DNA of 39,955 bases from a virus: the IMG/VR virus record IMGVR_UViG_3300030617_000031, positions 1 through 39,955 of that record. One strand, written 5' to 3'. Below, one piece after another: positions 7,720-30,003 of the stretch (the stretch's first letter is position 1; each line of letters starts with the position of its first letter). A program made the translations under genes and the position numbers. The notes beneath the pieces were generated by a model. That model worked only from the letters and a program-made list of their open reading frames with translations, searched no databases and was not told where the DNA came from.

Positions 7720-8334
7720 ATGAATCATTTCGCTGAAGTAGTACGTTTTAACGAAGCCGCACGCGGCGCGCTGCCGCACCGCCCAACTAAGCTGACACTC
7801 GACGAGACAAAGCTCTGCCTGCGTTTGATCATCGAAGAGTCGTTCGAGACCGTCGAAGCGTGCCTCAGGCCCGAAAGCGCGGCGCTCGTCCTGATGACGA
7901 CTTATAAGAACAAAATTCAGGCGGTCATTGCTCACCTGATCGACCACTCGGATGTAGAACAGGACAGCGCAGCCCTGTTGGACGGTCTGTGCGATACAAT
8001 CGTGGTTACTATGGGGATGGCTGCGCTCGCCGGGTTGCCGCTGAATGAAGGCATGGGTGAGGTCAATGGTAGCAACTTGGCCAAGATCGACCCAGCCACA
8101 GGCCTGTGCATCAAGGATGCCGGCGGAAAGATCCAAAAACCGCCGGGTTGGAAGAAGCCGGACCTCGAATCGATCATCAGCTGGTCTCGGTTGCACGGCA
8201 ACCGCGGCGACGTGCATTACGAGAAGATTAAGCCAGTCTCGGCTGCACTCGAAACCGCGTTAAGCAGCTGCGGTCAGTTCCCCGAGAACTTAGCAGCGCA
8301 CAAGAAAGCTGGGGGTGTAGGTCAGCATGAGTAG
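7720..8334 (+). CDS. MazG-like nucleotide pyrophosphohydrolase
   Basis: 204 residues. The all-alpha NTP pyrophosphohydrolase pattern is visible: IIEESFE with E39, E40 and E43, then LLDGLCDTIVV with D88 and D92, then NGSNLAKID (N119, K122) followed by a Gly/Pro-rich closing segment (GGKIQKPPGWKKPDL). Members of this superfamily hydrolyse NTPs or dNTPs to monophosphate and pyrophosphate at a Mg site made by the two acidic motifs. In phages they adjust the nucleotide pool or counter (p)ppGpp-type starvation signalling. About 50 residues after the core are unassigned. It overlaps the next gene by eight bases. Confidence 0.75.
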   Translation: MNHFAEVVRFNEAARGALPHRPTKLTLDETKLCLRLIIEESFETVEACLRPESAALVLMTTYKNKIQAVIAHLIDHSDVEQDSAALLDGLCDTIVVTMGMAALAGLPLNEGMGEVNGSNLAKIDPATGLCIKDAGGKIQKPPGWKKPDLESIISWSRLHGNRGDVHYEKIKPVSAALETALSSCGQFPENLAAHKKAGGVGQHE

Positions 8335-8497
8335 AGAAGAAGTTGAGGCGCTCCTGAGAGCTAAGAGGGAGTCGGATGGAATCGACACGGGGCTTTACGA
8401 CTGCGGATTACAGTACGTGGTCATGGACGAAGTGGACGGCGTAGGTTTGACGTTCACTTGGTTCTCTCAGATGAATGATTTAGACGATCTGGTTTAA
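8327..8497 (+). CDS. Small acidic unknown protein
   Basis: 56 residues from ATG 8327, overlapping the end of the MazG-like gene by eight bases, with GGGGGTG upstream. The product starts MSREEVEALLRAKRE and ends NDLDDLV; it is strongly acidic and looks like helix-hairpin. It fills the otherwise empty interval before 8508. No family recognised. Confidence 0.6.
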   Translation: MSREEVEALLRAKRESDGIDTGLYDCGLQYVVMDEVDGVGLTFTWFSQMNDLDDLV

Positions 8498-8507
8498 GGA
8501 AAACGTA

Positions 8508-8930
8508 ATGGATTGGTTCAACCTCAAAGACATCTACACCGACAAAGAAATGCGCGATACCTACTCCAGCTACCGCAGCCGTGTAGCTGGTGCTCAGGCG
8601 CGACACGTACGCCATCTGGACATCCCGCGGGAAGCTGGAGCCGGAGCTGGACGGCCCGCGCGTGTCACGCTGATCACGCGGGAAGGTGTAGATGCGCTGT
8701 ACGCGCCGGCCGCCGCGCCTGCAAAGCTGAAGCCTTACGTCTGCCCGATGCGCCTGACCGATAAAGCGCGTCAGCACATAGCGGTTACGGACAAGTACAC
8801 GCTTGGGCTTCGGTTCTCCACGGAAGGGCTTGAGAAGCGTGCCCGAATTCTCGACACGGATCAATTCATCGCGTTCCTTGTGAAGATCGGCAACGTGGAT
8901 TTGATCGAGCCGGATTTTATCAACCTCTAG
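8508..8930 (+). CDS. Unknown protein with Ala/Gly/Pro-rich linker
   Basis: 140 residues, AAGGA ten bases upstream of the ATG. A basic helical N-terminus (RSRVAGAQARHVRHLDIPRE) leads into a low-complexity linker (AGAGAGRPAR and later APAAAPAK), then a compact C-terminal domain. The layout resembles a small regulator with a tethered domain, but there is no recognised motif. A 61-base AT-rich gap follows. Confidence 0.55.
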   Translation: MDWFNLKDIYTDKEMRDTYSSYRSRVAGAQARHVRHLDIPREAGAGAGRPARVTLITREGVDALYAPAAAPAKLKPYVCPMRLTDKARQHIAVTDKYTLGLRFSTEGLEKRARILDTDQFIAFLVKIGNVDLIEPDFINL

Positions 8931-8991
8931 TCTTTACAGCGGGTTAGTGTCATCTTTGGCATTTTATAGATAATAATATTTAGGATTCCTA

Positions 8992-9936
8992 ATGAAACAG
9001 GTCTACGTTGAAAAGAAGCTGAACAAGGCCAACACCGTGTTGGTCGGCATCATGGAATCCATCTCGCGCGAGTACTCTGCAGCGGGATACACCATGACCA
9101 CTCGACAGCTCTATTACCAGCTCGTTGCGCGCGACTACATCCCGAACACGCTGCAGGAATACAAGCGCGTCGCATCGATTATCAACGACGCCAAGCTCGC
9201 CGGCCTGCTCGACTGGGACGCGTTTGAAGATCGCACGCGGGCATTCGAGCGTCGTGGTCACTGGGATAACCCGGAAGACATGGTGCAGGCATGCGCCAAC
9301 CAGTTCTACGTTGATATGTGGGAAGGACAGGACCGTCGCGTGTTCGTGATCGTCGAGAAAGAGGCGCTGGTAGGCGTCCTGAATCGCGTCTGCGAACGAT
9401 TCGACGTTCCGCTGCTCGCAGCTCGTGGCTACCCCTCTGCAACAGTGCTGCGCGAGTTCGCCGTCTCCGACATGCGAAAGGCCGAACAAGCGGGTCAAGA
9501 CTGCTTGATCTTGCACCTGGGCGATCATGATCCGAGTGGTATTGATATGACGCGCGACTTGCAGGAACGCCTGTCCTTGTTCACCAACTCGCACGTCGAC
9601 CTGCGGCGCATCGCTTTGAACATGCAGCAGGTCGAAGCCGAAGACCCGCCGGAAAATCCGGCCAAGATCAGCGACTCGCGCTTTGCAGACTACCAACGCA
9701 ACTTTGGTGACAGTAGCTGGGAACTTGACGCGTTGCCGCCCGAGTTCTTGGACTCGCTGCTAACTGAGCAGATCCGCGAAAACATAGACGAGCCGGTTTG
9801 GCGTGAACGCGAAGATGAAATCATTGACGGCCGCCAGGCGTTGAACGAGGCAGTCGACTACATCGCGAACGGGCTACCTCACTACAAAGACAAGATGACC
9901 GGTCGCACGGGTAAGTTTGAATCGGCGCTGGACTGA
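8992..9936 (+). CDS. Topo VI-A / Spo11-like protein (mini-A type)
   Basis: 314 residues. The N-terminal region has TTRQLYYQLV with R38, Y41 and Y42, matching the RxxYY signature around the catalytic tyrosine of the type IIB topoisomerase A subunit and Spo11. A TOPRIM-like domain follows: VIVEKEAL with E122, then HLGDHDPSGID with D178 and D180. These motifs would place the tyrosine for DNA cleavage and the acids for Mg binding. At 314 residues it is shorter than Topo VI-A and no B subunit (GHKL ATPase) is in the window, which fits the single-subunit 'mini-A' proteins described from mobile elements. The 61 bases upstream are AT-rich and may hold a promoter, but I see no convincing hexamers. Confidence 0.75.
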   Translation: MKQVYVEKKLNKANTVLVGIMESISREYSAAGYTMTTRQLYYQLVARDYIPNTLQEYKRVASIINDAKLAGLLDWDAFEDRTRAFERRGHWDNPEDMVQACANQFYVDMWEGQDRRVFVIVEKEALVGVLNRVCERFDVPLLAARGYPSATVLREFAVSDMRKAEQAGQDCLILHLGDHDPSGIDMTRDLQERLSLFTNSHVDLRRIALNMQQVEAEDPPENPAKISDSRFADYQRNFGDSSWELDALPPEFLDSLLTEQIRENIDEPVWREREDEIIDGRQALNEAVDYIANGLPHYKDKMTGRTGKFESALD

Positions 9937-9939
9937 GCG

Positions 9940-10341
9940 GTGAGCAAGCAGCCGAGGAAACGGACCAAGAAGTATGTCCCGAAGCGCGTCAGCTCACCGG
10001 TCATGCCGGAGCTGCACGACATCATTGCGATGGGCATGCACACGTCGTTCTCAACGCTGAAAAGCCGGCCGGATGAAAATGCGTTCTCAATGCTGGCCAG
10101 GATTGTAGGAATGGTCGGCCGCGCTATCGAGGGCGACCCGAGGTTTGCAGCGGAACGGCTGCAGATCAACTCGGCCGGCGCAGCGCTCAACCAGATCGGG
10201 GCCAAGGTGGGTCCGTTGCGCGCGACGGCGCTGGAGCTGCTGCCTGTCTTGAACGCAGTGCGAATGATCGATGTTATCTTGCCGCGCCTCGATGTCGCGA
10301 AGTTGCATCAGGCTAATTTGGATATGGCCTGCCTCAAATAG
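9940..10341 (+). CDS. Unknown protein with basic N-terminus
   Basis: 133 residues from GTG 9940, three bases after the Topo VI-A-like gene. It starts SKQPRKRTKKYVPKRV, a Lys/Arg/Pro-rich tail likely to bind nucleic acid, then continues as a helical domain (ARIVGMVGRAIEGDPRF; ALELLPVLNAVRMIDVIL). The immediate linkage suggests it may assist the upstream protein or replication; this is inference. A strong hairpin starts at its stop codon. Confidence 0.65.
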   Translation: MSKQPRKRTKKYVPKRVSSPVMPELHDIIAMGMHTSFSTLKSRPDENAFSMLARIVGMVGRAIEGDPRFAAERLQINSAGAALNQIGAKVGPLRATALELLPVLNAVRMIDVILPRLDVAKLHQANLDMACLK

Positions 10342-10343
10342 AA

Positions 10344-10365
10344 AAGCCGGGCTTTCGCCCGGCTT
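10344..10365 (+). terminator. Terminator hairpin after 10341
   Basis: Nine-base perfect stem AAGCCGGGC / GCCCGGCTT with a TTTC loop, directly after the stop codon. The downstream bases are CCCCCTC rather than T-rich, so termination could be weaker or read better from the other strand, where TTTTC follows the stem. Confidence 0.6.
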
Positions 10366-11232: not shown

Positions 11233-12636
11233 ATGTCTGCAGTAGCGAATATTTGCAAAAAAATAAACTTCCCACTTACGCCCCTCGGCTACCAGGTAGA
11301 GAACGTCGACGCGAGCATTGCGGAAAGCATCGATCACCACGGCATGTATTGGGACATGGGCGCAGGCAAGACGTTCGGATCGACACTGCGAAACATGATC
11401 TACCGAGACGAGACTGGAGCGCAAATCATCCAGGTCGTACCCCCCATTCTCATTAGGCAATGGGCGCGATGGCTGGACAGCTGCGGGATATCGAACACGG
11501 TCTACGTCGGAACCAAGAAGCAGCGATCAAAACTCACGCTAGGTCGCGACACGAGCTACCTGCTGATTCCGCTTGGCATCCTCAAGAACGACTACGATCG
11601 AATCTATGAGACCTACAGTGCGCGCAAGATATCCGTGGCTGTCGACGAGGCTACCTGCATCAAAAACTACGACTCAGGCAATTTCAGGGCGATCCTGCAG
11701 CTGCAGTCCGGCCAAGCCATCATGCCCATGACCGGTACTCCCCTCGCAACACCTAGTGACGCCTACGCATACATCAAGCTGATTAGCCCGGAAATTTACC
11801 GAAGCTTCTCCCAGTTCGAGAACATCCACGTCGGGTCGAAGGATTACTTCGACACGGTCACAGAGTGGAAAAATCTTGACGTTTTGAAGAAAAACTTAGG
11901 ACTCCGATCTTCTTTTATATCGACGCCAGAGGTTCATCCTGACATGCCGCGCGCGCGAATCTCGGATATCGAGTACGACTTGGCCAAGTCACATGAGAAG
12001 CTGTACCGGACGCTGGTAGACCAACAGCTGCTCGTGTTCGACAACGGCGGCGCTATCGATGCGTCAACGCCATCTAAACTCTACCATGCGGTCCAGCAGA
12101 TCGTGCTGAACTACGGCTACTTCGCGCAGCAGAACGATCTAGTCCCCGCAGGCTTTGAAGTGCTTGATGAAATGGTCGCAGAGGTCGGCCGAGCAAAGCT
12201 GCTGGTGTTTGCGAACTACAAGATGTCCGTGCGCGCCATCGTGGAGCATTTGCGTAAGACGGGCGTAGCAGCTGTGCAAGTGAACGGCGAGATATCCGCC
12301 AAGGAGAAGTTCGACAACATCGAGATGTTCTTGAAAAACCCGCTGTGTCAGGTTCTCGTTGTCAACACGATATCCGCCGGCAAAGGTCTCGACGGCCTGC
12401 AGCATGTCTGCCACTACATGCTGTTTATGGAGGTGCCAACCGTAGCTCTGACATTTTGGCAGGCTGTCAAGCGTCTTGAGCGACCTGGACAGAAGTTTAT
12501 CACGGACGTACGGATCGCCACGGCGCTCGGAACCGTACAGGTGCGGATGCGCAAAAACCTGATTCAGAACGATGGCCTCGTAAATTCCCTAGTTCCGTCT
12601 GCAAACGATCTCCGAAATGCGCTCTACGGGAAGTAG
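11233..12636 (+). CDS. SNF2-like superfamily 2 helicase/translocase
   Basis: 467 residues; AGGAG nine bases before the ATG. Motif I is MGAGKT at 42-47, motif II DEAT at 138-141, motif III TGTP at 167-170, and in the second RecA-like domain there is SAGKGLDGLQ (motif V) and QAVKRLERPGQ (motif VI). It is an ATP-dependent DNA translocase of the compact phage type (like UvsW/SNF2 relatives), with no accessory domains. Placed just before the primase-helicase, it likely acts in fork remodelling, initiation or recombination. Stop and the following gene's upstream region overlap by one base at 12636. Confidence 0.85.
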   Translation: MSAVANICKKINFPLTPLGYQVENVDASIAESIDHHGMYWDMGAGKTFGSTLRNMIYRDETGAQIIQVVPPILIRQWARWLDSCGISNTVYVGTKKQRSKLTLGRDTSYLLIPLGILKNDYDRIYETYSARKISVAVDEATCIKNYDSGNFRAILQLQSGQAIMPMTGTPLATPSDAYAYIKLISPEIYRSFSQFENIHVGSKDYFDTVTEWKNLDVLKKNLGLRSSFISTPEVHPDMPRARISDIEYDLAKSHEKLYRTLVDQQLLVFDNGGAIDASTPSKLYHAVQQIVLNYGYFAQQNDLVPAGFEVLDEMVAEVGRAKLLVFANYKMSVRAIVEHLRKTGVAAVQVNGEISAKEKFDNIEMFLKNPLCQVLVVNTISAGKGLDGLQHVCHYMLFMEVPTVALTFWQAVKRLERPGQKFITDVRIATALGTVQVRMRKNLIQNDGLVNSLVPSANDLRNALYGK

Positions 12637-12689
12637 TGCGGTTAGAATCCTCCCTTCCCCTTAGCACCCACAACCAAAGACACCACCCC

Positions 12690-15515
12690 ATGTCTGACAC
12701 ATTTTTTTACCACACATCAAATAAGACATCTGGTTGGACAGCAGCGCCGTCGTCGTCGCGCGAAGCCGTCATTGCGGCCAAGAAACCGAAGTACGTCACG
12801 GTCTTAGACCTGGACACACTGGTCAACGACGAAACACCTCTCGAAGACACGTTGAAGATCCGTTACTCCGGTCCGTTCTACGCTGACTGGGATTGCCCGG
12901 ACATTATGGAAGGCGCAGCATCCGTTAATCGTTATCTTGACCTACTTAGTCAGGACTACGATGTAAATGTTGAGTGCGTCGCACTGTACGCCACGGGCGG
13001 CCGGGGATTTCACGCGGAGATTCCGTTCGCTGTGATGTCGGCTTCCAAAGCAGGTGTGATGTACTTGCCGTCGATCTACAAGGAAATCGCAAACGAGACG
13101 TTCGTCGAGTTCTTGGACTTGGCCGTCTACTCAGCCAAGCGCGGCCGGATGTGGCGCACACCGAACGTCGAGCGGGAAACACCCGGTAAGTTTAAAGTGC
13201 CTATCTCGCTCGATCAAATGCGCAACATGACGCAAGCGCTGTACGACGAGCTTTGCAGCGAGCCTCAGCCAACCCCTGAGCGCGCCGAGCCTACCCTAGC
13301 GCCGGCTTTCGCTGCCCTCTTCGCTGACCTGAAAAAGAAGGTCGAGCAGAAGTTCCGTGAGCGCAAGAACAAGAAGGGAGACGACAGCGCCGTCAAGCGC
13401 TTCAAAGGCGAGTGGCCCGAGTCGGTCTTAACGCTGATGCGCGGCGAGAACCTGAGCAAGGACGTAGGCCTGAACAAGGTAGCGCTGCAGATCGGCATCT
13501 TGTCCTGTGCTCTTGGGAAAACGCTCGATCAGCATCTGGAAGCCTGCGAGGGGCTGATATCCACTTATAAGGGCGATGGCCACAACACGCGGTCGTCAGT
13601 ACGCAATGAGCTGAAGCGCATGTACGGGTACGCGAACGGCAACGTCGCCTACGCCTACTCGCCCGCGGCGATGGCACACATCATGGACGTGCCCCAGCTG
13701 GCCAAGGATCTGCGAGGCACAGCTGCTCAAGTGGGCGGCGACTCTAACCCTGACGATTTGAGCGACCTATCGCGCGGCCTGATCAACGGATCGAACGGCA
13801 TCTACAGCATCAAAGAAGACACGCTGTACCGCGAGACCAATTGGCACTTCGATTCCGACTCCGTTCTGGAGATCACGGACGCGGAGACTGGCGTGTCACG
13901 CGGATTCATCCTGCAGAGCCGTGACAGTGGTCGGCCGACCCAGGAAATCAACGTCGACCACGGTACGTTCGTGTCCGGCGACAAGCTAAAGGGCTTTCTG
14001 GCGTCTAAAGGCGCAGTTGCGCCGAACATGGACACTCTCAAGGCCGGCCGCCTGCTGGCCTTGATCATGCAAAGCGCCAAGGCCAACGGCCAGATCAAGG
14101 CTCTTCCCAAGGAAGGATTCAACCTCATAGGCGATCACATGGTGTGGTGCAGCCCGAGTGGATGCTGGGCGCACAATTCGCCCGACAACTATCGCTTCAG
14201 GGCCTGTGCGGGCGGCGAAAGCGGCAATTTCAGGTCCGACGTAATGGCAGCGCCTCAGTTGAAGGATCTGGCGAGCGCGGGCGACGTGATAGACGCCCTG
14301 CTCGCCTTCAACTTGAACGATTTCACTGTGGCCGCGACCCTCGGCTGGTTCGTAGCCTGCTGGCACAAGCCGCTGCACATCGCGCTGGGCCAGTCGTTCC
14401 CAATCCTTCAAGCTTACGGCGAGTCGGGCGCGGGCAAGACCCTGCTCTGTATGCAGCTGCTCCGCATGTTCTATTTCAACGAAGCGCCTAAGGCGATGAA
14501 TGCCTCACAGGGAACGGCTTACGGCCGGCGCGTCATGTTCGGCGGCGCTACCTCGATCCCGATCCTGGTCGACGAGTTCAAGCCTACGCGGATGTCGATT
14601 GAAGCAGCACGTGACTTCCGCATGACAATCCATGAGATGTACACCCCGGCATTTCAGTCGCCGCGGGGCGGTGGTGACGCCAGGTCGAGCGCACCAGGTA
14701 ACTGGGCCGAGCTGTCGCAGGACACCAAAACCACGCCGCTGTGCTTCACAACAGAGACGGCCGAGTCCGAGACCGCGATCCAGGAACGCACGATTTCGGT
14801 GCCGTTCAGCAAGGCAGCGCGCGGCGGCACAGCAGACGCAGCGTTCCAGAAGCTGACCGGCAACCCCGAAGTACTCGCAGCCGTTGGCAAGCTACTTCTG
14901 CAAGGCACAGCAGCTGCGAAGAGAGATACCCTCAAAAGCCTGATCGAGCGCGGACACACAGTTGCTAAGGAGAACTTGAACCGCTCGGGCAACAGCCGGA
15001 TCGTCTACAACGCGGGCGTCGCCATATCGGGCTTGGGCTTCCTCGGTATGGTTCTGCGGCACCAGATGCCTGAAGAGTTTTCCGAGCGCTTTGAGGCGCG
15101 TCTGGAGACCTTGCGCGCGGCGCTTCTTGACGCTACCAACTACACGACCCTACAAGCCGCGCCGGAAATCGTAAAGCTGCTACGTTTCATGATCACTATT
15201 TCGCACCAGGACGAAGCGGATGCGGACCACAACGTGCGTCTTGGCAAAGAGTACGCATACTTCGGCAAGGGTCTAGACCTCGACTTGGACGTGGATGCTT
15301 TCTACCTGCGTTACCGGACAGCGGCGACACGGCGCAGCCAGGTTCCGGCGTTCGCAGACCCGGATACTTTCCTCGCAGCGTTGGGTTCGTCGTCGCTGCT
15401 GAAGGAGAACTCACCGCCCGATTCCGGGCTGATTAACGGCACGAATGCGCCTCGCGTTGTGCGTCTTAGCGCGATTGCACTCGAAGAGTACAAATTAGGA
15501 GCGTTTATGGCATGA
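12690..15515 (+). CDS. AEP-type primase fused to helicase
   Basis: 941 residues from ATG 12690, which lacks a clear ribosome site; an in-frame GTG at 12636 is preceded by GGGAAG at too short a spacing, so the start is uncertain. Residues about 60-180 resemble an archaeo-eukaryotic primase: ADWDCPD gives the DxD metal site (D66, D68), GGRGFHAEIP the nucleotide-binding His (H108), and RMWRTPNVERETPGKFKVP a third motif. Near 577-584 GESGAGKT is a Walker A and ILVDEF near 625 a Walker B, so the C-terminal part is a replicative-type helicase. The two would prime and unwind at the phage fork. A repeated hairpin begins at its stop codon. Confidence 0.8.
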   Translation: MSDTFFYHTSNKTSGWTAAPSSSREAVIAAKKPKYVTVLDLDTLVNDETPLEDTLKIRYSGPFYADWDCPDIMEGAASVNRYLDLLSQDYDVNVECVALYATGGRGFHAEIPFAVMSASKAGVMYLPSIYKEIANETFVEFLDLAVYSAKRGRMWRTPNVERETPGKFKVPISLDQMRNMTQALYDELCSEPQPTPERAEPTLAPAFAALFADLKKKVEQKFRERKNKKGDDSAVKRFKGEWPESVLTLMRGENLSKDVGLNKVALQIGILSCALGKTLDQHLEACEGLISTYKGDGHNTRSSVRNELKRMYGYANGNVAYAYSPAAMAHIMDVPQLAKDLRGTAAQVGGDSNPDDLSDLSRGLINGSNGIYSIKEDTLYRETNWHFDSDSVLEITDAETGVSRGFILQSRDSGRPTQEINVDHGTFVSGDKLKGFLASKGAVAPNMDTLKAGRLLALIMQSAKANGQIKALPKEGFNLIGDHMVWCSPSGCWAHNSPDNYRFRACAGGESGNFRSDVMAAPQLKDLASAGDVIDALLAFNLNDFTVAATLGWFVACWHKPLHIALGQSFPILQAYGESGAGKTLLCMQLLRMFYFNEAPKAMNASQGTAYGRRVMFGGATSIPILVDEFKPTRMSIEAARDFRMTIHEMYTPAFQSPRGGGDARSSAPGNWAELSQDTKTTPLCFTTETAESETAIQERTISVPFSKAARGGTADAAFQKLTGNPEVLAAVGKLLLQGTAAAKRDTLKSLIERGHTVAKENLNRSGNSRIVYNAGVAISGLGFLGMVLRHQMPEEFSERFEARLETLRAALLDATNYTTLQAAPEIVKLLRFMITISHQDEADADHNVRLGKEYAYFGKGLDLDLDVDAFYLRYRTAATRRSQVPAFADPDTFLAALGSSSLLKENSPPDSGLINGTNAPRVVRLSAIALEEYKLGAFMA

Positions 15516-16611: not shown

Positions 16612-17283
16612 ATGACACGAATTTTTGTGGCTGATACCGAAACGACGGGCCTGAAGTCGTCTGACCGCGTTGTCGAGTATGCCCACCTTGAATGCCGACT
16701 GCAGGCTAACCGACTGGTAGTCGTAAAGCAGTTTGAGACACTGACCAACCCAGGCATACCCATTCCCGAAGGGGCGATGAAAGTGCATGGCGTGAACGAC
16801 GCGATGATCGCTAAGGCTCCGTATCTGCGCGATGTACTGCCCGCGGCCCTCGGCGTGGCCAAGAACGAATACGCGAAGATGTTTGGCCATAACTTCACAG
16901 CCTACGATATGCAGTTCCTTGACGGCCTGATCCCGGACAGCTTCGATATTGGATGCACGCTGAAAGCAGCCCGCATGTTTATCGACGCACCCCGACACTC
17001 GCTCGACTTCTTGCGAGAGCATCTTGACCTACCTGAAGCACTGGCACACAGCGCGCTTGGCGACTGCTGCTCGACGTTTCATTTGATCAATCACATGCTC
17101 GCTGCAGGCACCCCTTGGGATGCACTGTCGAGCTGCATGCTGTCAAAGCCTACTGCGATCACGTTCGGCAAGCACAAAGGGACGCTGCTGCAGGATCTGC
17201 CGGACGACTACGTTCGCTGGTTGCTGGAGAAGTGCGACAACACGTCGTGGGAACTGCGCCGCGCGCTGAAGGAGTTGGCATGA
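16612..17283 (+). CDS. DnaQ-type 3'-5' exonuclease with C-terminal DUF3820-like domain
   Basis: 223 residues. DEDDh motifs: ADTETTGL (D8, E10), GHNFTAYDMQF (exo II Asp), and AHSALGDCCS (His and Asp of exo III). Such enzymes remove 3' nucleotides with two metal ions, as proofreading or general DNA/RNA trimming. The last 45 residues contain TFGKHKGTLLQDLPDDYVRWL, which matches the pattern of DUF3820, a small domain often fused to or near DnaQ-like nucleases. GGAG precedes the ATG. Its stop overlaps the next ATG by four bases. The Pol I in this unit has its own 3'-5' domain, so this nuclease probably acts separately. Confidence 0.8.
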   Translation: MTRIFVADTETTGLKSSDRVVEYAHLECRLQANRLVVVKQFETLTNPGIPIPEGAMKVHGVNDAMIAKAPYLRDVLPAALGVAKNEYAKMFGHNFTAYDMQFLDGLIPDSFDIGCTLKAARMFIDAPRHSLDFLREHLDLPEALAHSALGDCCSTFHLINHMLAAGTPWDALSSCMLSKPTAITFGKHKGTLLQDLPDDYVRWLLEKCDNTSWELRRALKELA

Positions 17284-17768
17284 CTACCCGCTGCGGTGCC
17301 CCTGTCACGGGGGAGACCTACTTCACTTCGACATCTGGCGTCAAGAATCCCAACCCGAAAGACTCGATAGGCAGCTCGAAGATCCCGATGCACCTCTGGC
17401 CAGAAGCCGCGACTGTCCTAGGCTCCTTAGCGCTGCTCGACGGGGCGCTGAAGTACGGTCGCAGCAACTTCCGCGCCTCGCCGGTCCGCGCCTCTGTCTA
17501 CTACGACGCAGCGAAGCGCCACCTCAACGCCTGGTTCGAAGGTAGGTCTTGCGACCCTGATTCCGGCCTACCCGATCTGGCGCATGCACTCGCCTGTTTG
17601 GCAATCCTCGTGGATGCAGAAGCGGCCTGCACGCTGATAGACGACCGCATGGTTTCTGGCGGCTACCTAACGTTGCTCGAAGGAATGACGCCGCACGTAA
17701 AACGACTGCAGGAACTGCACGCGGACAAGACCCCGAAACACTACACCATCGCGGACCAGATGCCATGA
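17280..17768 (+). CDS. dATP/dGTP diphosphohydrolase-like protein (DUF5664 type)
   Basis: 162 residues from ATG 17280 (ATGA overlap with the exonuclease); a longer reading from 17115 would lie inside that gene. The family pattern is clear: NPNPKDSIGSSKIPMHLWP, then GALKYGRSNFRASPV, YDAAKRHLNAWFEG, DPDSGLPDLAHALACLAIL. These residues match what I know as the dATP/dGTP diphosphohydrolase N-terminal family, related to MazG, which is common in phages and includes proteins linked to purine dNTP control. GGAG lies in the end of the previous gene. The next gene is also MazG-like. Confidence 0.7.
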   Translation: MTTRCGAPVTGETYFTSTSGVKNPNPKDSIGSSKIPMHLWPEAATVLGSLALLDGALKYGRSNFRASPVRASVYYDAAKRHLNAWFEGRSCDPDSGLPDLAHALACLAILVDAEAACTLIDDRMVSGGYLTLLEGMTPHVKRLQELHADKTPKHYTIADQMP

Positions 17769-23710: not shown

Positions 23711-25111
23711 ATGAATTCACAACAAGTATTTGATGTGATCGAAGCAATAGCTGAGACCGCAAGCAAGAAGGAAAAGCAGGCGCTGCTCGCAGCCAACATC
23801 GGACAGCCTTTGTTCAAGCGCGTGCTCGTCGCAGCTCTCGACCCGCTCATTAGCTATGGCATCAGCAAGCGCCCTCCGTCTGGAACGAACAGCGCGGGGC
23901 GGGGAGCACTGTTCGACGACGGTACTTGGGCAGTTATTGACGACTTGGCCGCGCGCCGGCTGACCGGCCACAACGCGATTGCCGTCTTGTGCGGCGAGAT
24001 GGAACGCCTCGAACCTAAATCGGCCGAACTGTTCTGGCGCATCGTTAAAAAAGACCTGCGCGCGGGCTTCGGCGCAGAGACGGTCAACAAGGCATCTAAA
24101 GGGCTGATTCAGGCGTCTCCCTATATGCGCTGCGTGCTGCCCGCAGACGCGAAGTTCGATGAATGGGATTGGGTCAAGGGTGCATTCAGCCAGCAAAAGG
24201 CAGACGGCGCATTCACGAACGTCGACCACGACCACGCCGGCATCGTGCGTCTGACCACGCGGCAGGGTAATGAGTTGCCGATTGAGCAGTTTGCCGAAGT
24301 TGTCGACGCTGTTAAGGTGCGCCTGCAGCTTGGCACGCAAACGCATGGAGAAATCCTCGTGCTGGTCGACGGCAAGATCGCGGATCGCGCGACAGGTAAC
24401 GGTATTCTCAACCGAGTGGCGGCAGGCGGCAGCTTTACTGAGCGCGAGGTTCCCCTATTTTTCGCGTGGGACCAGATCCCACTGGAGTGTGTGAAGCCGA
24501 AGGGCGAGTACACGGTGCCGTACCGCGAGCGCTGGTCGTCGCTGGTGGATCAGGTCGTGGGCGAAGGCAACTCGATAATGTCGGTGCGCCTGATCCCTAC
24601 CGAACGTGTGCACTCGCTCAAGGACGGCTACGCCCACTGCACAAGCCTGCAGGTCGAAGGCAAAGAAGGAACCGTCCTCAAGAACGGCAGCGGCTTCTGG
24701 AAAGACACCAAGAGCGGTAACAAGGATGTCGTGAAGCTCAAGCTCGAAGTGGATGTCGACCTGATTACGAGGGAAGTTCTGAACGGTGAAGACGGCACGA
24801 AAAACGACGGGCGCGCGGGCCGCGTACGGATGGAAACGCGCGACGGGTTGCTGAGCGTGAACGTTGCAGTGAAAAACGAGAAGCTGCGCGACGCAATCGA
24901 CGCGAACCGGGCCGACTTCACCGACCGTATATGGACCGTGCGCTTCAATGAAATCACGGAACCGTCCGACAGCAACCCGCTGCACTCGTTGTTTCTGCCG
25001 CGCATGGTGGAAGACTGGTATCGCAGCGATAAAAGTGACGCGGACTCGCTGCCCGAAGTCTACGCACAGCGTGACGCTAAAGTCCAGGGCACGCCCGAGG
25101 TGGTCGCATGA
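23711..25111 (+). CDS. ATP-dependent DNA ligase
   Basis: 466 residues from ATG 23711, with GAGG six bases upstream; TTG 23699 is a poorer alternative. The nucleotidyl-transferase motif I is QKADGAF with K163 as the AMP-accepting lysine; motif III is LFFAWDQIP, motif IV is EGTVLKNG, and motif V lies in VVKLKLEVDVD. The C-terminal 130 residues fit an OB-fold domain. The enzyme seals nicks during phage replication, joining fragments after primer removal by the Pol I 5' nuclease. An N-terminal helical domain of about 150 residues is like T4-type ligases. ATGA overlap with the next gene. Confidence 0.88.
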   Translation: MNSQQVFDVIEAIAETASKKEKQALLAANIGQPLFKRVLVAALDPLISYGISKRPPSGTNSAGRGALFDDGTWAVIDDLAARRLTGHNAIAVLCGEMERLEPKSAELFWRIVKKDLRAGFGAETVNKASKGLIQASPYMRCVLPADAKFDEWDWVKGAFSQQKADGAFTNVDHDHAGIVRLTTRQGNELPIEQFAEVVDAVKVRLQLGTQTHGEILVLVDGKIADRATGNGILNRVAAGGSFTEREVPLFFAWDQIPLECVKPKGEYTVPYRERWSSLVDQVVGEGNSIMSVRLIPTERVHSLKDGYAHCTSLQVEGKEGTVLKNGSGFWKDTKSGNKDVVKLKLEVDVDLITREVLNGEDGTKNDGRAGRVRMETRDGLLSVNVAVKNEKLRDAIDANRADFTDRIWTVRFNEITEPSDSNPLHSLFLPRMVEDWYRSDKSDADSLPEVYAQRDAKVQGTPEVVA

Positions 25112-25662
25112 AGACCGACATCCCCACCTTCAGCGGCAACTACTTCAGCTTCACTGACGTGGTGTCTAACGTCGTCAGCATCGAAGACATTGCGCACGGC
25201 CTATCAAACGTATGCCGGTTCGCCGGCCAGTGCCCGCAATTTTACTCCGTCGCACAGCACAGCGTCATGGTCGCCTACATCCTTGAAGAGTTATACGGGA
25301 TACACGATCCAGAAGTACTTCTTCAAGGTCTTTTCCACGACGCCTCCGAGGCTTTCCTGGGCGACATGACTACACCGCTGAAGAAGCTGATCCCCGAGTA
25401 CATGGTGATCGAGGCACGCGTACAGGCTGACCTTATGCGGCGCTTTGGTTTGCCATCCTCTCTGCATCGAATCGTAAGTCTCGCGGATCTCTCAGCGCTC
25501 CGGATGGAGAAAGAGCAACTGCTTAAGAACCACGACGTGTGGGCGGTTTTAGAGGGCGTCGAGTGCCTTCAAGAATTTTTCGTTTTCTTCTACACCCCTG
25601 AGCAGGCGAAGGCTCAGTTCTTGAATACCTTTTACCGACTAATGAGCGCCCGCAGATGCTGA
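25108..25662 (+). CDS. HD-domain nucleotidase/dNTP hydrolase, YfbR-like
   Basis: 184 residues. The HD signature is intact: HGLSNVCRFAG (H30), VAQHSVMVA (H51), LLQGLFHDASEAFLGD (H77, D78) and SLADLSAL (D127). YfbR-type enzymes convert deoxynucleoside monophosphates to nucleosides; close phage relatives also include dNTP triphosphohydrolases such as DatZ. The substrate cannot be decided from sequence. Coupled to ligase by ATGA and overlapping the SbcD-like gene by seven bases. With the MazG-like and ThyA genes it belongs to the phage's nucleotide-pool set. Confidence 0.78.
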   Translation: MKTDIPTFSGNYFSFTDVVSNVVSIEDIAHGLSNVCRFAGQCPQFYSVAQHSVMVAYILEELYGIHDPEVLLQGLFHDASEAFLGDMTTPLKKLIPEYMVIEARVQADLMRRFGLPSSLHRIVSLADLSALRMEKEQLLKNHDVWAVLEGVECLQEFFVFFYTPEQAKAQFLNTFYRLMSARRC

Positions 25663-26723
25663 TCATAAATGACCTTCACCTCGGCGTGAACCGCTCCGGC
25701 GGCACGACGCCGCTGACCCATGCCACCTTGACCGAATACACGCACGAGAAGTTCGAGTGGCTGCTTGACCAAACCGACCAAGACGGTTGCCTGCTGATTG
25801 ACGGCGATCTATTCGACGGTTTCCTCGTGTCCAACAACGTGCTGTTGCGTACGTTCTCGGGGCTGTCCACACGGCTCTATTCAGGCGTCATCAAGAAGCT
25901 TCTCTTGGCGCGCGGAAACCACGATATAGCGAAAGACTCGACGAAGCTCAGCTCCTTCGATCTGCTCGGCGCGCTGCTGGTCGAGGCGTATCCGCAGCGT
26001 GTGGTGGTGATCACCGAACCTACCGTTATCCGTTGGGGCGCAGAGAATGAATCATCTGCCTGGGTCATTCCCCACGCCGAGAACCAGGACATCTTCGACA
26101 TGTGGATCGGCCAGGTGATCAACGATCCACAAGACATCGTGTTCGTCCACGCCAATTACGACAACGGCTTTGCAGCTGAGTCGGACCACTCTCTGAACTT
26201 GACCAAAGAGTGGTGCAACGCGCTTGAAACAGTCGGCGTTCAAAAGATCATCTTCGGTCACGAGCATCAGCAGGGCATCCGGCCGAACGGCGTGATCATC
26301 ATCGGCAACCAGTTTCCCACATCTATTTCTGACTGCTTGAATAACGACAGCAAGCGCGCGCTGCAGATCAGCGAGACGGGCCACATCACCGAGTTGCAGA
26401 CCTGGACGGACCGCGGTTCGTACTTCGAATGCGACTGGGCGAAACTGGATCAAGTGCCGGAAGACGCCCAATTCGTGCGGATCAAGGGCGAAGCGACCGA
26501 CGAGCAGGCCGCAGCGGTTCTCGACGCTGCGTCTGCCTTGCGCAAGAAGCACGGCGCGTTCGTCATCACCAACTCGGTCGTCGTGAACGGCCGCACGCTG
26601 GACATCTCCGCTCTCGACGCCGTCGAACAGGTCCAGACGTTCGACGTGACTGCCTTCTTATTCGACAACCTGTCGGCCGACCAGGTCGAATACTTGAAGC
26701 CGATGCTGAAGGAGCGCACGTGA
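25656..26723 (+). CDS. sbcD: SbcD/Mre11-like metallophosphoesterase nuclease subunit
   Basis: 355 residues. Calcineurin-type motifs: INDLHLG (D6, H8), DGDLFDG (D51, D54), ARGNHDIA (N88, H89), FVHANYDNG and GHEHQQG. These coordinate two metal ions (usually Mn) for phosphodiester cleavage. Paired with the SbcC/Rad50-like ATPase downstream, it corresponds to T4 gp47 / SbcD and would process DNA ends, hairpins or breaks. The C-terminal 100 residues probably include the ATPase-binding helices. Between it and sbcC lies a 41-residue gene, all three coupled by overlapping codons. Confidence 0.85.
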   Translation: MLIINDLHLGVNRSGGTTPLTHATLTEYTHEKFEWLLDQTDQDGCLLIDGDLFDGFLVSNNVLLRTFSGLSTRLYSGVIKKLLLARGNHDIAKDSTKLSSFDLLGALLVEAYPQRVVVITEPTVIRWGAENESSAWVIPHAENQDIFDMWIGQVINDPQDIVFVHANYDNGFAAESDHSLNLTKEWCNALETVGVQKIIFGHEHQQGIRPNGVIIIGNQFPTSISDCLNNDSKRALQISETGHITELQTWTDRGSYFECDWAKLDQVPEDAQFVRIKGEATDEQAAAVLDAASALRKKHGAFVITNSVVVNGRTLDISALDAVEQVQTFDVTAFLFDNLSADQVEYLKPMLKERT

Positions 26724-26845
26724 AGATACTTGGATGGACCCGTGCGCAGTGGCGTGAAGCGCACAAGCATGCGAGTCGTGCAACCACGCTCGCGGAATAC
26801 CTTGATCGTTTGAAAAACGCATTGGAGCGAAGCGCAAATGCTTAA
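26720..26845 (+). CDS. 41-residue protein between SbcD- and SbcC-like genes
   Basis: GTG start at 26720 overlaps the SbcD-like stop (GTGA) and has GGAG six bases upstream; its end overlaps the SbcC-like start by eight bases. The product (KILGWTRAQWREAHKHASR then TLAEYLDRLKNALE) is a basic, amphipathic helical pair with two Trp. No family recognised. It may be a small subunit or modulator of the SbcCD-like complex, or only a coupling frame. Confidence 0.55.
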   Translation: MKILGWTRAQWREAHKHASRATTLAEYLDRLKNALERSANA

Positions 26846-28976
26846 TGAAATCAGCCTCACCAACTTCCGGCAATTTACCGATCGTACAGTCGTCTTCGGT
26901 GCCGGCAACACGTCGCTGCGCGGTGCAAACGAGGGCGGAAAGAGCACCATCATCGAAGGTTTCCTGTACTTGGTCGGCGGCGTCAAGGCTTGCCGCAACA
27001 ATGACTTCGTTACTTGGGGCGCTAAAGCATCAACCTGCAAAGTCGAAGGCTTGCTCACGCTGCAAGGCACGCAGATCCGCGCCACGCGCGGCAAGTCCGG
27101 CGCTGAAATCTACGTGCCGCACTCGGCTGACAAACCGACCATCGTCGGCCAAAACGAGGTCACGGCCTGGTTCAGTGAGCAGCTGGGCGCATCGTTCGAC
27201 GTGATCAAGAAAATGTGCTTCGCCGGACAGAAGGAAATCGGTGGTTTGCTCGATGAAGGCAATACTAAGGCTGTCGAGTTCATCGAAGACATGTCCGGTC
27301 TAGACATTGTCGAGTTCTTCATTGGTAAGATCCAGGCAACCGGTAAAGTCGGCGTCACCACGGCATTGGTCGAGCGCGCGCACAACGACCGCGACCAGCT
27401 TGAGCTGAGCAAGGGTTACGGCTCCAGCGCCGAGCAAAACATCAAATCCTGCGAAGCGCAGATCGTGCCTCTTGAGAAAACATCGCAACTGCTTACTTCT
27501 CAGGTCGAGGAAGCCGAAGATGTCTTGAAAGCGGATCGCGAGCTACTGCGTATAGCCACGCGGCGTTCGTCCCTGCTCGAATCTGCAAAACAACGCAAAA
27601 CAGCCGCAATTTTGGCTCTTGACAAGGCCACAAACACGCGAGAAGGCACCGCCAGCGCCCTTGCGGAAGCTCGCCTTGATGCTGCCCTTGAGGCAGAGCT
27701 AGAAACGGCACAGGCGAGGCAACAAAATGTGGAAGATTCCACAATTCGCATAAAAATGAAGCAGGCTCTCGACGCGTGGCCAGCGCCCGAGGCGGAATGG
27801 GATGAAGGTCTCCCCGCGCTGCAGAAATTCGTCGCCGACAACCGAAACCTGGAAAACGACGCGAGCCGTCGAATCGCGTCATGCAGGAAAGACATCGCTG
27901 TTGCTGAAGCGAAAAAGGTTAATTCGAGTGCATGCGGTTTGTGCGGGAAGGATGTCAGTGAATTTCCGGAAGTCGCCAAGAAAAACGCAGCGTTGGACGC
28001 TGCGGCCGAAGCACTGCGGGCCGAAGTGGTAATCCTGCTGGCCCATTCGGAAGACTACGTAGCCAACATCGAGGCCGGCGCAGCGATCTTGGCTGCGCCG
28101 AGTTTCCCCCACGCGCACAAGCGCCCCGATCTGTTCGAGATCGACTGCAAGTATGTGCCGTTCCGTGTCAAGTGGGTCGGCGGTGAAGTCGGAGCCGCTG
28201 CGCCGAGTCTGCTGTCACAAATCGCAGCGTTGAAGGCCGAGCGCCAGGCACGCGCAACGCTGGAACGCGCGGCGGCCACTGCGCAGGCCGCGTTCGACGC
28301 CGCTGATGCGGCCTTGACCGCATTGACGGGCGATCTGGTGGCGCTCGAAGCCGGGCCGGCGACGGTTGAGAGCGACATCGCTGAGCGGATCGCGATTGCC
28401 GAAGGTGTGCTGACGCAGCTCCGGGTGGAGCTTTCCCTTGTCGACAGGGAGTTGGCCGGTCTGCGGAGTCAGCTGACCAGTCTGCGGATCAGCTTCAGAG
28501 ATTTGGCGGTGACCCTGGAGCGGCTTAAATCTTCACTCGCCGTCACGGAAGCTGATCTGGCCACCTACGAGTTTCACAACAAGCTGATTGAGGATTTGCG
28601 TAAGGCGCGGCCGGTCGTTGCTAACCGGCTCTGGAACATGGTCTTGAAGGCGGTTTCAACCTATCTCACCCGGATGCGCAACGAGCCGTCCATCGTCGAG
28701 CGCCAGGACAAGACGTTCATTGTGAATGGCAAGCCCTATACCTCGTACTCAGGCAGCGCCATCGACTTGCTGGCGCTCGGCATCCGCATAGCTCTCACCA
28801 AAATCTTCGTGCCCGGCGCGGACATGCTAGTGCTCGACGAGCCGTTCGCAGCTTGCACGCCCGAGCGGACGCTTCAGTGCTTGGCTTTCGCGGTTGCGGC
28901 TGGCTTCTCGCAGACGATCATCATCACGCACGAGGGCGGTACCGAGCAAGTTTTCGATCATATCGTGGAGGTGTGA
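26838..28976 (+). CDS. sbcC: SbcC/Rad50-like ATPase
   Basis: 712 residues. Walker A is GANEGGKST at 29-37; two coiled-coil arms surround a zinc hook CGLCGK near 365; the ABC signature region is SGSAIDLLALGIRIAL near 640; Walker B is MLVLDEPFA near 662 and the H-loop is ITHEGG. It would form a dimer that opens and closes on ATP and controls the SbcD-like nuclease on DNA ends. At 712 residues it is shorter than E. coli SbcC, mainly because its coiled coils are shorter, as in T4 gp46-like phage forms. It starts eight bases before the end of the 41-residue gene. Confidence 0.87.
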   Translation: MLNEISLTNFRQFTDRTVVFGAGNTSLRGANEGGKSTIIEGFLYLVGGVKACRNNDFVTWGAKASTCKVEGLLTLQGTQIRATRGKSGAEIYVPHSADKPTIVGQNEVTAWFSEQLGASFDVIKKMCFAGQKEIGGLLDEGNTKAVEFIEDMSGLDIVEFFIGKIQATGKVGVTTALVERAHNDRDQLELSKGYGSSAEQNIKSCEAQIVPLEKTSQLLTSQVEEAEDVLKADRELLRIATRRSSLLESAKQRKTAAILALDKATNTREGTASALAEARLDAALEAELETAQARQQNVEDSTIRIKMKQALDAWPAPEAEWDEGLPALQKFVADNRNLENDASRRIASCRKDIAVAEAKKVNSSACGLCGKDVSEFPEVAKKNAALDAAAEALRAEVVILLAHSEDYVANIEAGAAILAAPSFPHAHKRPDLFEIDCKYVPFRVKWVGGEVGAAAPSLLSQIAALKAERQARATLERAAATAQAAFDAADAALTALTGDLVALEAGPATVESDIAERIAIAEGVLTQLRVELSLVDRELAGLRSQLTSLRISFRDLAVTLERLKSSLAVTEADLATYEFHNKLIEDLRKARPVVANRLWNMVLKAVSTYLTRMRNEPSIVERQDKTFIVNGKPYTSYSGSAIDLLALGIRIALTKIFVPGADMLVLDEPFAACTPERTLQCLAFAVAAGFSQTIIITHEGGTEQVFDHIVEV

Positions 28977-29127: not shown

Positions 29128-30003
29128 ATGAGCCTTACCTGGGAACACCAATATCTTGACCTCCTGGCCGAGCTGCTGCACAGCGGCAATCAGAAAGGCG
29201 ACCGCACGGGAACGGGCACACGCAGCCTCTTTGGCCGCCAGATCCGCATCGACCTGCAGCGGGAATTTCCGCTGATGACGACCAAGTTTGTCCCGTTCAA
29301 GGCTGTGGACGGCGAACTCCGCTGGATGCTCAGCGGCTCGACGAGCGCCAAGGAGCTGGTCGAGAAGTATGGCACGACCATTTGGAACGAGTGGGCAGAT
29401 GAATACGGCGATCTTGGGCCGGTATATGGCGCGCAGTGGCGCACCTGGTGCGGTGTGAACGTCAACACTGATGCCTGCAGCGACGTGGTGGTAGTCGACC
29501 AGATCGCAGAGGTGATCAAAAGTCTGCGGGAACGCCCGAATAGCCGGCGGCACGTCGTGAGCGCTTGGAACGTAACGGATCTGCCGGACGAGGCATTGAC
29601 CCCACAAGAGAACGTCGCAGCGGGCAAGATGGCGCTATCGCCGTGCCACTGTCTGTTCCAGTTCTACGTGAACGACGGCAAGCTGTCGTGCCTGCTCTAT
29701 CAGCGCAGCTGCGATATCTTCCTTGGCGTACCGTTCAATATCCCGAGCTACGCTCTGCTGACGCATATCATCGCCTCGCTCGTGGGTCTCGACGTGGGCG
29801 AGTTTATCTGGACCGGTGGAGATGTCCATTTGTACAACAATCACGTCGACCAGGCGCGCACACAACTGGCTCGGCAACCCACCGCGGCACCTCAGCTGCA
29901 GTGGAGCCATGCCCCGGTATCGCTCGACCAGCTCGGCGCAGATTGTTTTGAGGTTGTAGACTACACGCCACAGGCGGCTATCAAGGCTGCGGTCTCAGTG
30001 TGA
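29128..30003 (+). CDS. thyA: Thymidylate synthase
   Basis: 291 residues, GAGGAG nine bases upstream. It shows the ThyA core: GDRTGTGTRSLFG near the N-terminus, DLGPVYGAQWRTW, RRHVVSAWN, the catalytic cysteine in SPCHCLFQFY (C173), LLYQRSCDIFLGVPFNI, and WTGGDVHLYNNH. It converts dUMP to dTMP with methylene-tetrahydrofolate. The Asn in PFNI marks a dUMP rather than dCMP substrate, and I see no change that would signal a hydroxymethylase. A loop of about 12 residues after WRTWCG (NVNTDACSDVVV) is longer than in E. coli ThyA. It supplies dTMP for phage DNA synthesis. Confidence 0.93.
   Translation: MSLTWEHQYLDLLAELLHSGNQKGDRTGTGTRSLFGRQIRIDLQREFPLMTTKFVPFKAVDGELRWMLSGSTSAKELVEKYGTTIWNEWADEYGDLGPVYGAQWRTWCGVNVNTDACSDVVVVDQIAEVIKSLRERPNSRRHVVSAWNVTDLPDEALTPQENVAAGKMALSPCHCLFQFYVNDGKLSCLLYQRSCDIFLGVPFNIPSYALLTHIIASLVGLDVGEFIWTGGDVHLYNNHVDQARTQLARQPTAAPQLQWSHAPVSLDQLGADCFEVVDYTPQAAIKAAVSV

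Follow-up and report, generated by a model that had tools for sequence, protein, structure and literature searches.

A phage Mini-A protein with the cleavage-site residues of Topo VI-A and no detectable GHKL ATPase partner

What might a topoisomerase A subunit do in a virus that appears to encode no B subunit? The question is raised by the IMG/VR virus record IMGVR_UViG_3300030617_000031 (39,955 bases, analysed over its whole length and hereafter called the window), in which a gene for a 314 aa Topo VI-A/Spo11-like protein is followed, after a gap of 3 bases, by a gene for a 133 aa protein (Table 1). A first-pass annotation had proposed that the two genes form a functional unit beside replication genes, and that the larger product may nick or break DNA to start replication or recombination, or may attack host DNA. 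The window contains an early and replication region together with tail-fibre genes. Its scanned proteins included no recognizable terminase, portal or capsid protein, and the genomes of relatives bearing the topoisomerase-like gene (Achromobacter phage JWF, for example) measure close to 80 kb. The window is therefore probably a fragment, in all likelihood about half of a genome. No Rfam families were found in it. A second contig (IMGVR_UViG_3300029944_000038) carries a polymerase identical to that of the window and probably represents the same phage or a very near one.

Table 1. Features of the window, with the evidence for each
Feature	Position	Strand	Evidence or remark
Weak match to a sigma-70-like promoter, 5' of Mini-A	8947..8974	+	9/12 matches; not above chance
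Mini-A CDS, Topo VI-A/Spo11-like, 314 aa	8992..9936	+	ATG start; phrog_6247, E 1.6e-122; family alignments A1 and A2; AF2 pLDDT 92.4
RQLYY, winged-helix motif, residues 38-42 (R38, clasp arginine; Y42, catalytic tyrosine)	9103..9117	+	M. mazei Top6A R102, Y106 (PMC13040014)
E122, TOPRIM glutamate (Top6A E202)	9355..9357	+	180/180
GDHDPSG, TOPRIM DxD (D178, D180; Top6A D254, D256)	9520..9540	+	D178 180/180, D180 179/180
E244, proposed counterpart of E342 (clasp and fourth acidic residue)	9721..9723	+	180/180; motif and order
133 aa protein, basic tail at its N-terminus; accessory gene	9940..10341	+	GTG start; no Mini-A found in relatives' records
Strong GC hairpin without T tail, directly 3' of the 133 aa gene	10344..10365	+	-18.1 kcal/mol, z -3.6
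SNF2-type helicase	11233-12636	+	phrog_62
Primase-like protein	12636-15515	+	phrog_16345
SbcD-like nuclease subunit	25656-26723	+	phrog_100
SbcC-like nuclease subunit	26838-28976	+	phrog_77

The 314 aa protein proved to be an ordinary member of Mini-A, a widespread family already described by Takahashi et al. 2020 (doi 10.1093/nargab/lqz021), as relayed in PMC7614492, PMC8185306 and PMC11302465. Along its entire length it matched phrog_6247 ('DNA topoisomerase'), and it displayed 48.5 % identity over 94 % (tblastn, E 1e-92) to the protein of Pseudomonas phage NP1 that has been drawn as the Mini-A exemplar (PMC7614492), which together support the assignment. The two proteins are phage-encoded, homologous over most of their length, share the same motifs and occur without a B subunit; the window protein differs from known Mini-A by ordinary divergence and nothing more. 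Its closest named relative was that of phage JWF (58 % identity). Relatives were identified by tblastn in 76 phage records, and also on 43 plasmids, in at least 555 viral stretches and in 226 cellular-genome stretches, indicating carriage by mobile elements (phages, plasmids and viral contigs).

In Parabacteroides phage PDS1 (4914-5800) the Mini-A gene is apparently split into two overlapping frames, one annotated as a DNA topoisomerase and the other as a DNA primase, and that of Roseobacter phage RDJL Phi 1 is likewise in two pieces, for which a frameshift or a sequencing error are both possible. The gene of Clavibacter phage 33 (5001-5990) contains a tandem duplication of ~37 residues across the TOPRIM glutamate, and since the rest of the protein is closely like a Stenotrophomonas phage Mini-A, there may be reason to doubt either the host given for this phage or its assembly. 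Two archaeal genomes (G001 and G002) both carry a Mini-A-like gene and lack a TP6A_N (Topo VI-A) match, possibly due to incomplete assemblies. Domain fusions were considered and rejected, as the long ORFs appeared to reflect only over-extension of start codons.

In M. mazei Topo VI the catalytic tyrosine is Y106, the acidic set comprises E202, D254, D256 and E342, and a salt bridge between R102 and E342 provides restraint (PMC13040014, 2026). All six residues were invariant, at near-constant spacing, in 59 archaeal Top6A sequences. Judged from its sequence, Mini-A keeps the complete set as R38, Y42, E122, D178, D180 and E244, arranged in the same order as in Top6A (arginine, tyrosine four residues later, then glutamate, DxD and glutamate); the pairing of E244 with E342 is proposed from the motif (ELDAL versus EQQAF) and this order rather than from superposition. 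Conservation of the site within the family was far above chance. Y42, E122, D178 and E244 were each present in 180/180 aligned Mini-A sequences and R38 in all 179 that reach its position, whilst D180 was present in 179/180, the sole altered DxD belonging to Haloarcula virus HCIV-1 (GDFNPSG at 7920-8951, with Asn in place of D180). The tyrosine and TOPRIM sites that had been described as intact, RQLYY and GDHDPSGID (residues 177-185), were both present. Of the two tyrosines originally put forward for mutation, Y42 stood as the invariant one, whereas Y41 was replaced by F, H or A in seven sequences.

Structure prediction bore out a Topo VI-A-like fold for the TOPRIM half. The full-length AlphaFold2 model, built from a 90-sequence alignment (Table 1), was predicted to follow the order strand-E-helix-strand-helix-strand-DxD-helix-strand, with E122 and the DxD each directly after a strand. 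When residues 108-314 were modelled separately (pLDDT 90.3), the best two matches among 350,542 PDB chains were 9o0g_A (E 1.1e-4) and 9o0g_C (E 3.8e-4), both the A subunit of M. mazei Topo VI in a cleavage state, at 4.8 Å over 159 columns. Among solved structures, the modelled TOPRIM half is thus closest to Topo VI-A. For the winged-helix half the likeness comprised motif spacing and predicted secondary structure, and a Foldseek search of the PDB with the full-length model returned no Topo VI among the 50 matches listed. The same model had no confident full-length relative in BFVD, where some TOPRIM primases appeared at E 0.05-0.1, and these full-length results are a genuine caveat on the fold. 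In sequence comparisons, a PDB search with Mini-A did not find Topo VI, the window protein had no TP6A_N match, and its relatives displayed sub-threshold Pfam matches to TOP6A-Spo11_Toprim (3/20), TP6A_N (1/20) and also DUF2399. The profile comparison with Topo VI-A envisaged in the first-pass annotation gave a weak hhalign match (score 30.5, E 0.003) of seven columns at TLRQLYY, which nevertheless exceeded the reversed control (21.7) and the best of 30 column shuffles (22.4).

The absence of a GHKL ATPase partner, noted originally for the window, which is probably a fragment, was upheld in the family records searched. At the one search sensitivity used, HATPase_c was found in 0/68 Mini-A records (the window and 21 phage records included, most of the latter deposited as complete genomes) and in 14/14 control genomes; neither HATPase_c nor TP6A_N was matched in the window. 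Mini-A also starts later. A median of 42 residues precede the catalytic tyrosine compared with 111 in Top6A, and because of these ~70 fewer residues the latch segment (R44, V57 and W58 of M. mazei Topo VI-A) is absent. A triple mutant of these latch residues in Topo VI lost relaxation activity (PMC13040014). Set against archaeal Top6A, then, Mini-A shares the R/Y/E/D/D/E set and a predicted TOPRIM fold but lacks Top6B and the N-terminal latch, is shorter (~300 versus ~370 residues) and retains little sequence identity; the A2B2 holoenzyme with a GHKL ATPase that defines Topo VI was not seen. Together, the missing latch and GHKL partner argue against Topo VI-like strand passage.

These absences bear directly on the possibility that Mini-A is an ATP-independent topoisomerase, cutting and resealing phage DNA so as to relax or unlink it by torsion alone and leaving no permanent breaks. 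Topoisomerase VIII contains an ATPase part and Mini-A does not. Even so, this element-borne type IIB relative (PMC7614492, PMC8185306) includes one enzyme that relaxes DNA without ATP (PMC7614492), SPO11 can reseal nicks (PMC11922746), records annotate Mini-A as DNA topoisomerase, and its active site and clasp are conserved as reversible chemistry would require. Against this, key latch residues are required for relaxation by Topo VI (PMC13040014) and are missing here. With no GHKL subunit in the 68 records either, we consider a topoisomerase of this kind unlikely. A GHKL protein of the host or phage, not of Topo VI-B type or very divergent, might alternatively substitute as B subunit, given that hosts have GyrB, ParE and MutL and that a HATPase_c search at one sensitivity can miss divergent GHKL domains. 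Such a substitute appears very unlikely: Mini-A lacks the N-terminal segment preceding the winged helix and has no conserved neighbour, and the same search that was negative in all 68 Mini-A records was positive in every control genome.

For an attack on host DNA we found no positive evidence. The nearest model would be a JetD/Wadjet-like nuclease directed against host, plasmid or rival phage DNA; TOPRIM is common to both, Mini-A gave weak JetD and DUF2399 matches, and TOPRIM dimers act as effectors in Wadjet and Gabija (PMC13040014). However, the CAP tyrosine kept in 180/180 Mini-A sequences is missing from both JetD and MksG (PMC10586767, PMC10123090), which are for this reason less close to Mini-A than the mouse SPO11 precedent. 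JetD moreover works with JetABC, whereas no recurrent SMC or kleisin neighbour system was evident at 156 Mini-A loci, and we attach very little probability to a nuclease of this type.

The explanation we lean towards, with measured confidence, is that Mini-A is a stand-alone type IIB DNA-cleaving subunit, which as a dimer makes ATP-independent, tyrosine-linked breaks or nicks for phage replication or recombination. The precedent is mouse SPO11, an A-subunit homologue that cleaves alone and is limited by dimerization on DNA (PMC11922746). Mini-A resembles it as an A-type subunit with the tyrosine and clasp kept, and presumably in its way of working, but differs in its phage setting, in having no known Top6BL-like partner and in lacking the latch that vertebrate Spo11 retains (PMC13040014). 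No cleavage data for any Mini-A were found in the literature surveyed, where its activity is called uncharacterized, at least in archaea (PMC8185306; cf. PMC11302465). From the family assignment and active site obtained by computation, we infer that two copies would dimerize on DNA, each Y42 attacking one strand with Mg2+ held by the TOPRIM acids of its partner, to yield a 5'-phosphotyrosyl break or nick that can be reversed and that involves neither ATP nor powered strand passage. R38 and E244 would together probably restrain the tyrosine as R102-E342 does in Topo VI, so that cleavage would stay rare unless dimerization were favoured by DNA shape or protein crowding. The resulting breaks may serve replication or recombination by freeing blocked or intertwined DNA, or by priming recombination.

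The 133 aa neighbour does not appear to belong to this activity. Described initially as rich in Lys and Arg, it is basic at its N-terminus only, where 8 K/R fall within the first 17 residues, and the protein as a whole does not fit that description. Two relatives were present in the searched collections, gp15 of Alcaligenes phage CASP1 (32 %) and a protein of the Bordetella phage-like plasmid pA (43.5 %), and Mini-A was found in neither record; conversely, no homologue was found in the other Mini-A loci fetched or in JWF-like genomes. On this distribution the 133 aa protein was rejected as a conserved Mini-A partner, and the proposed two-gene functional unit found no support. At most, the two genes share a short transcription unit. 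A two-gene machine, in which the 133 aa protein loads or regulates Mini-A, could draw on the narrow intergenic gap, the promoter-like match upstream, the strong hairpin downstream (which a terminator scan did not pick up) and a basic tail that could bind DNA, yet it is rendered extremely improbable by relatives that occur where no Mini-A was detected and by the absence of the gene from other Mini-A loci.

Replication genes do lie nearby as originally noted, with the helicase and primase-like genes occupying 11233-15515. Across 156 dereplicated Mini-A loci there was no constant neighbour gene, and the commonest genuine neighbours as judged from sequence (integrases, helicases and primase/polymerase) each occurred in ~10 % of loci or less. 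Individual phages displayed a ligase, ThyX and a Sak4-like annealing protein adjacent to or near Mini-A (NP1), a polymerase (RDJL Phi 2), a polymerase exonuclease subunit (BKO1-3) or ThyX (phage Delta). A replication or recombination setting is therefore frequent but not obligatory. The window additionally encodes nucleotide-pool enzymes at 7720-8334, 17115-17768 and 25108-25662 (MazG-like, dATP/dGTP diphosphohydrolase-like and deoxyribonucleoside monophosphate phosphatase) as well as a thymidylate synthase (29128-30003). The phage could conceivably have a genome with modified bases, but PurZ was not seen among the scanned window proteins.

In eukaryotes, Mre11-Rad50 removes Spo11 adducts, and the SbcD- and SbcC-like subunits in the window were therefore tested as partners of Mini-A. 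SbcD was detected in at least 7/68 Mini-A records, all seven of which also carried SbcC; this is a lower bound, as the divergent SbcD of the window was missed by the genome search and detected by hmmscan. Five complete relatives, recognized by their polymerase (Lana, PMBT3, UAntarctica, SHOU24 and PS14A.1), carried SbcC with no detected Mini-A, so that the link is not general and SbcCD was rejected as a dedicated partner. In one viral contig (IMGVR_UViG_3300034220_000029, 2650-6891), SbcD, SbcC and Mini-A follow one another in the same orientation, the last two separated by 9 bases, an arrangement that offers a lead, and only a lead, towards a clade-specific link. Relatives of the polymerase and the Holliday resolvase of the window lie upstream of this run. 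A more specific form of the cleaving-subunit explanation would cast Mini-A as the Spo11 of phages: a dimer that needs no partner, is held in check by its clasp and initiates recombination-dependent replication through programmed breaks in phage DNA to which it stays linked. Removal of the adduct would fall to a Mre11/Rad50-like SbcCD of the phage itself in those that encode one, such as this phage and its ~80 kb relatives, and to the SbcCD of the host in all others. We put this forward tentatively and regard it as distinctly unlikely in its full form.

Mini-A is widespread in phages and other mobile elements, and the reviews consulted report no characterized activity for it. Every residue of the Topo VI cleavage site, those of the safety clasp included, is near-absolutely conserved in the family, whilst the ATPase partner and latch are gone. 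This combination favours a cutter that works without ATP over a classical topoisomerase. The comparison pinpoints the exact residues to mutate and so makes the question of function testable. If the explanation is true, a phage Spo11-like enzyme would provide a simple model for the separation of break-making from strand passage.
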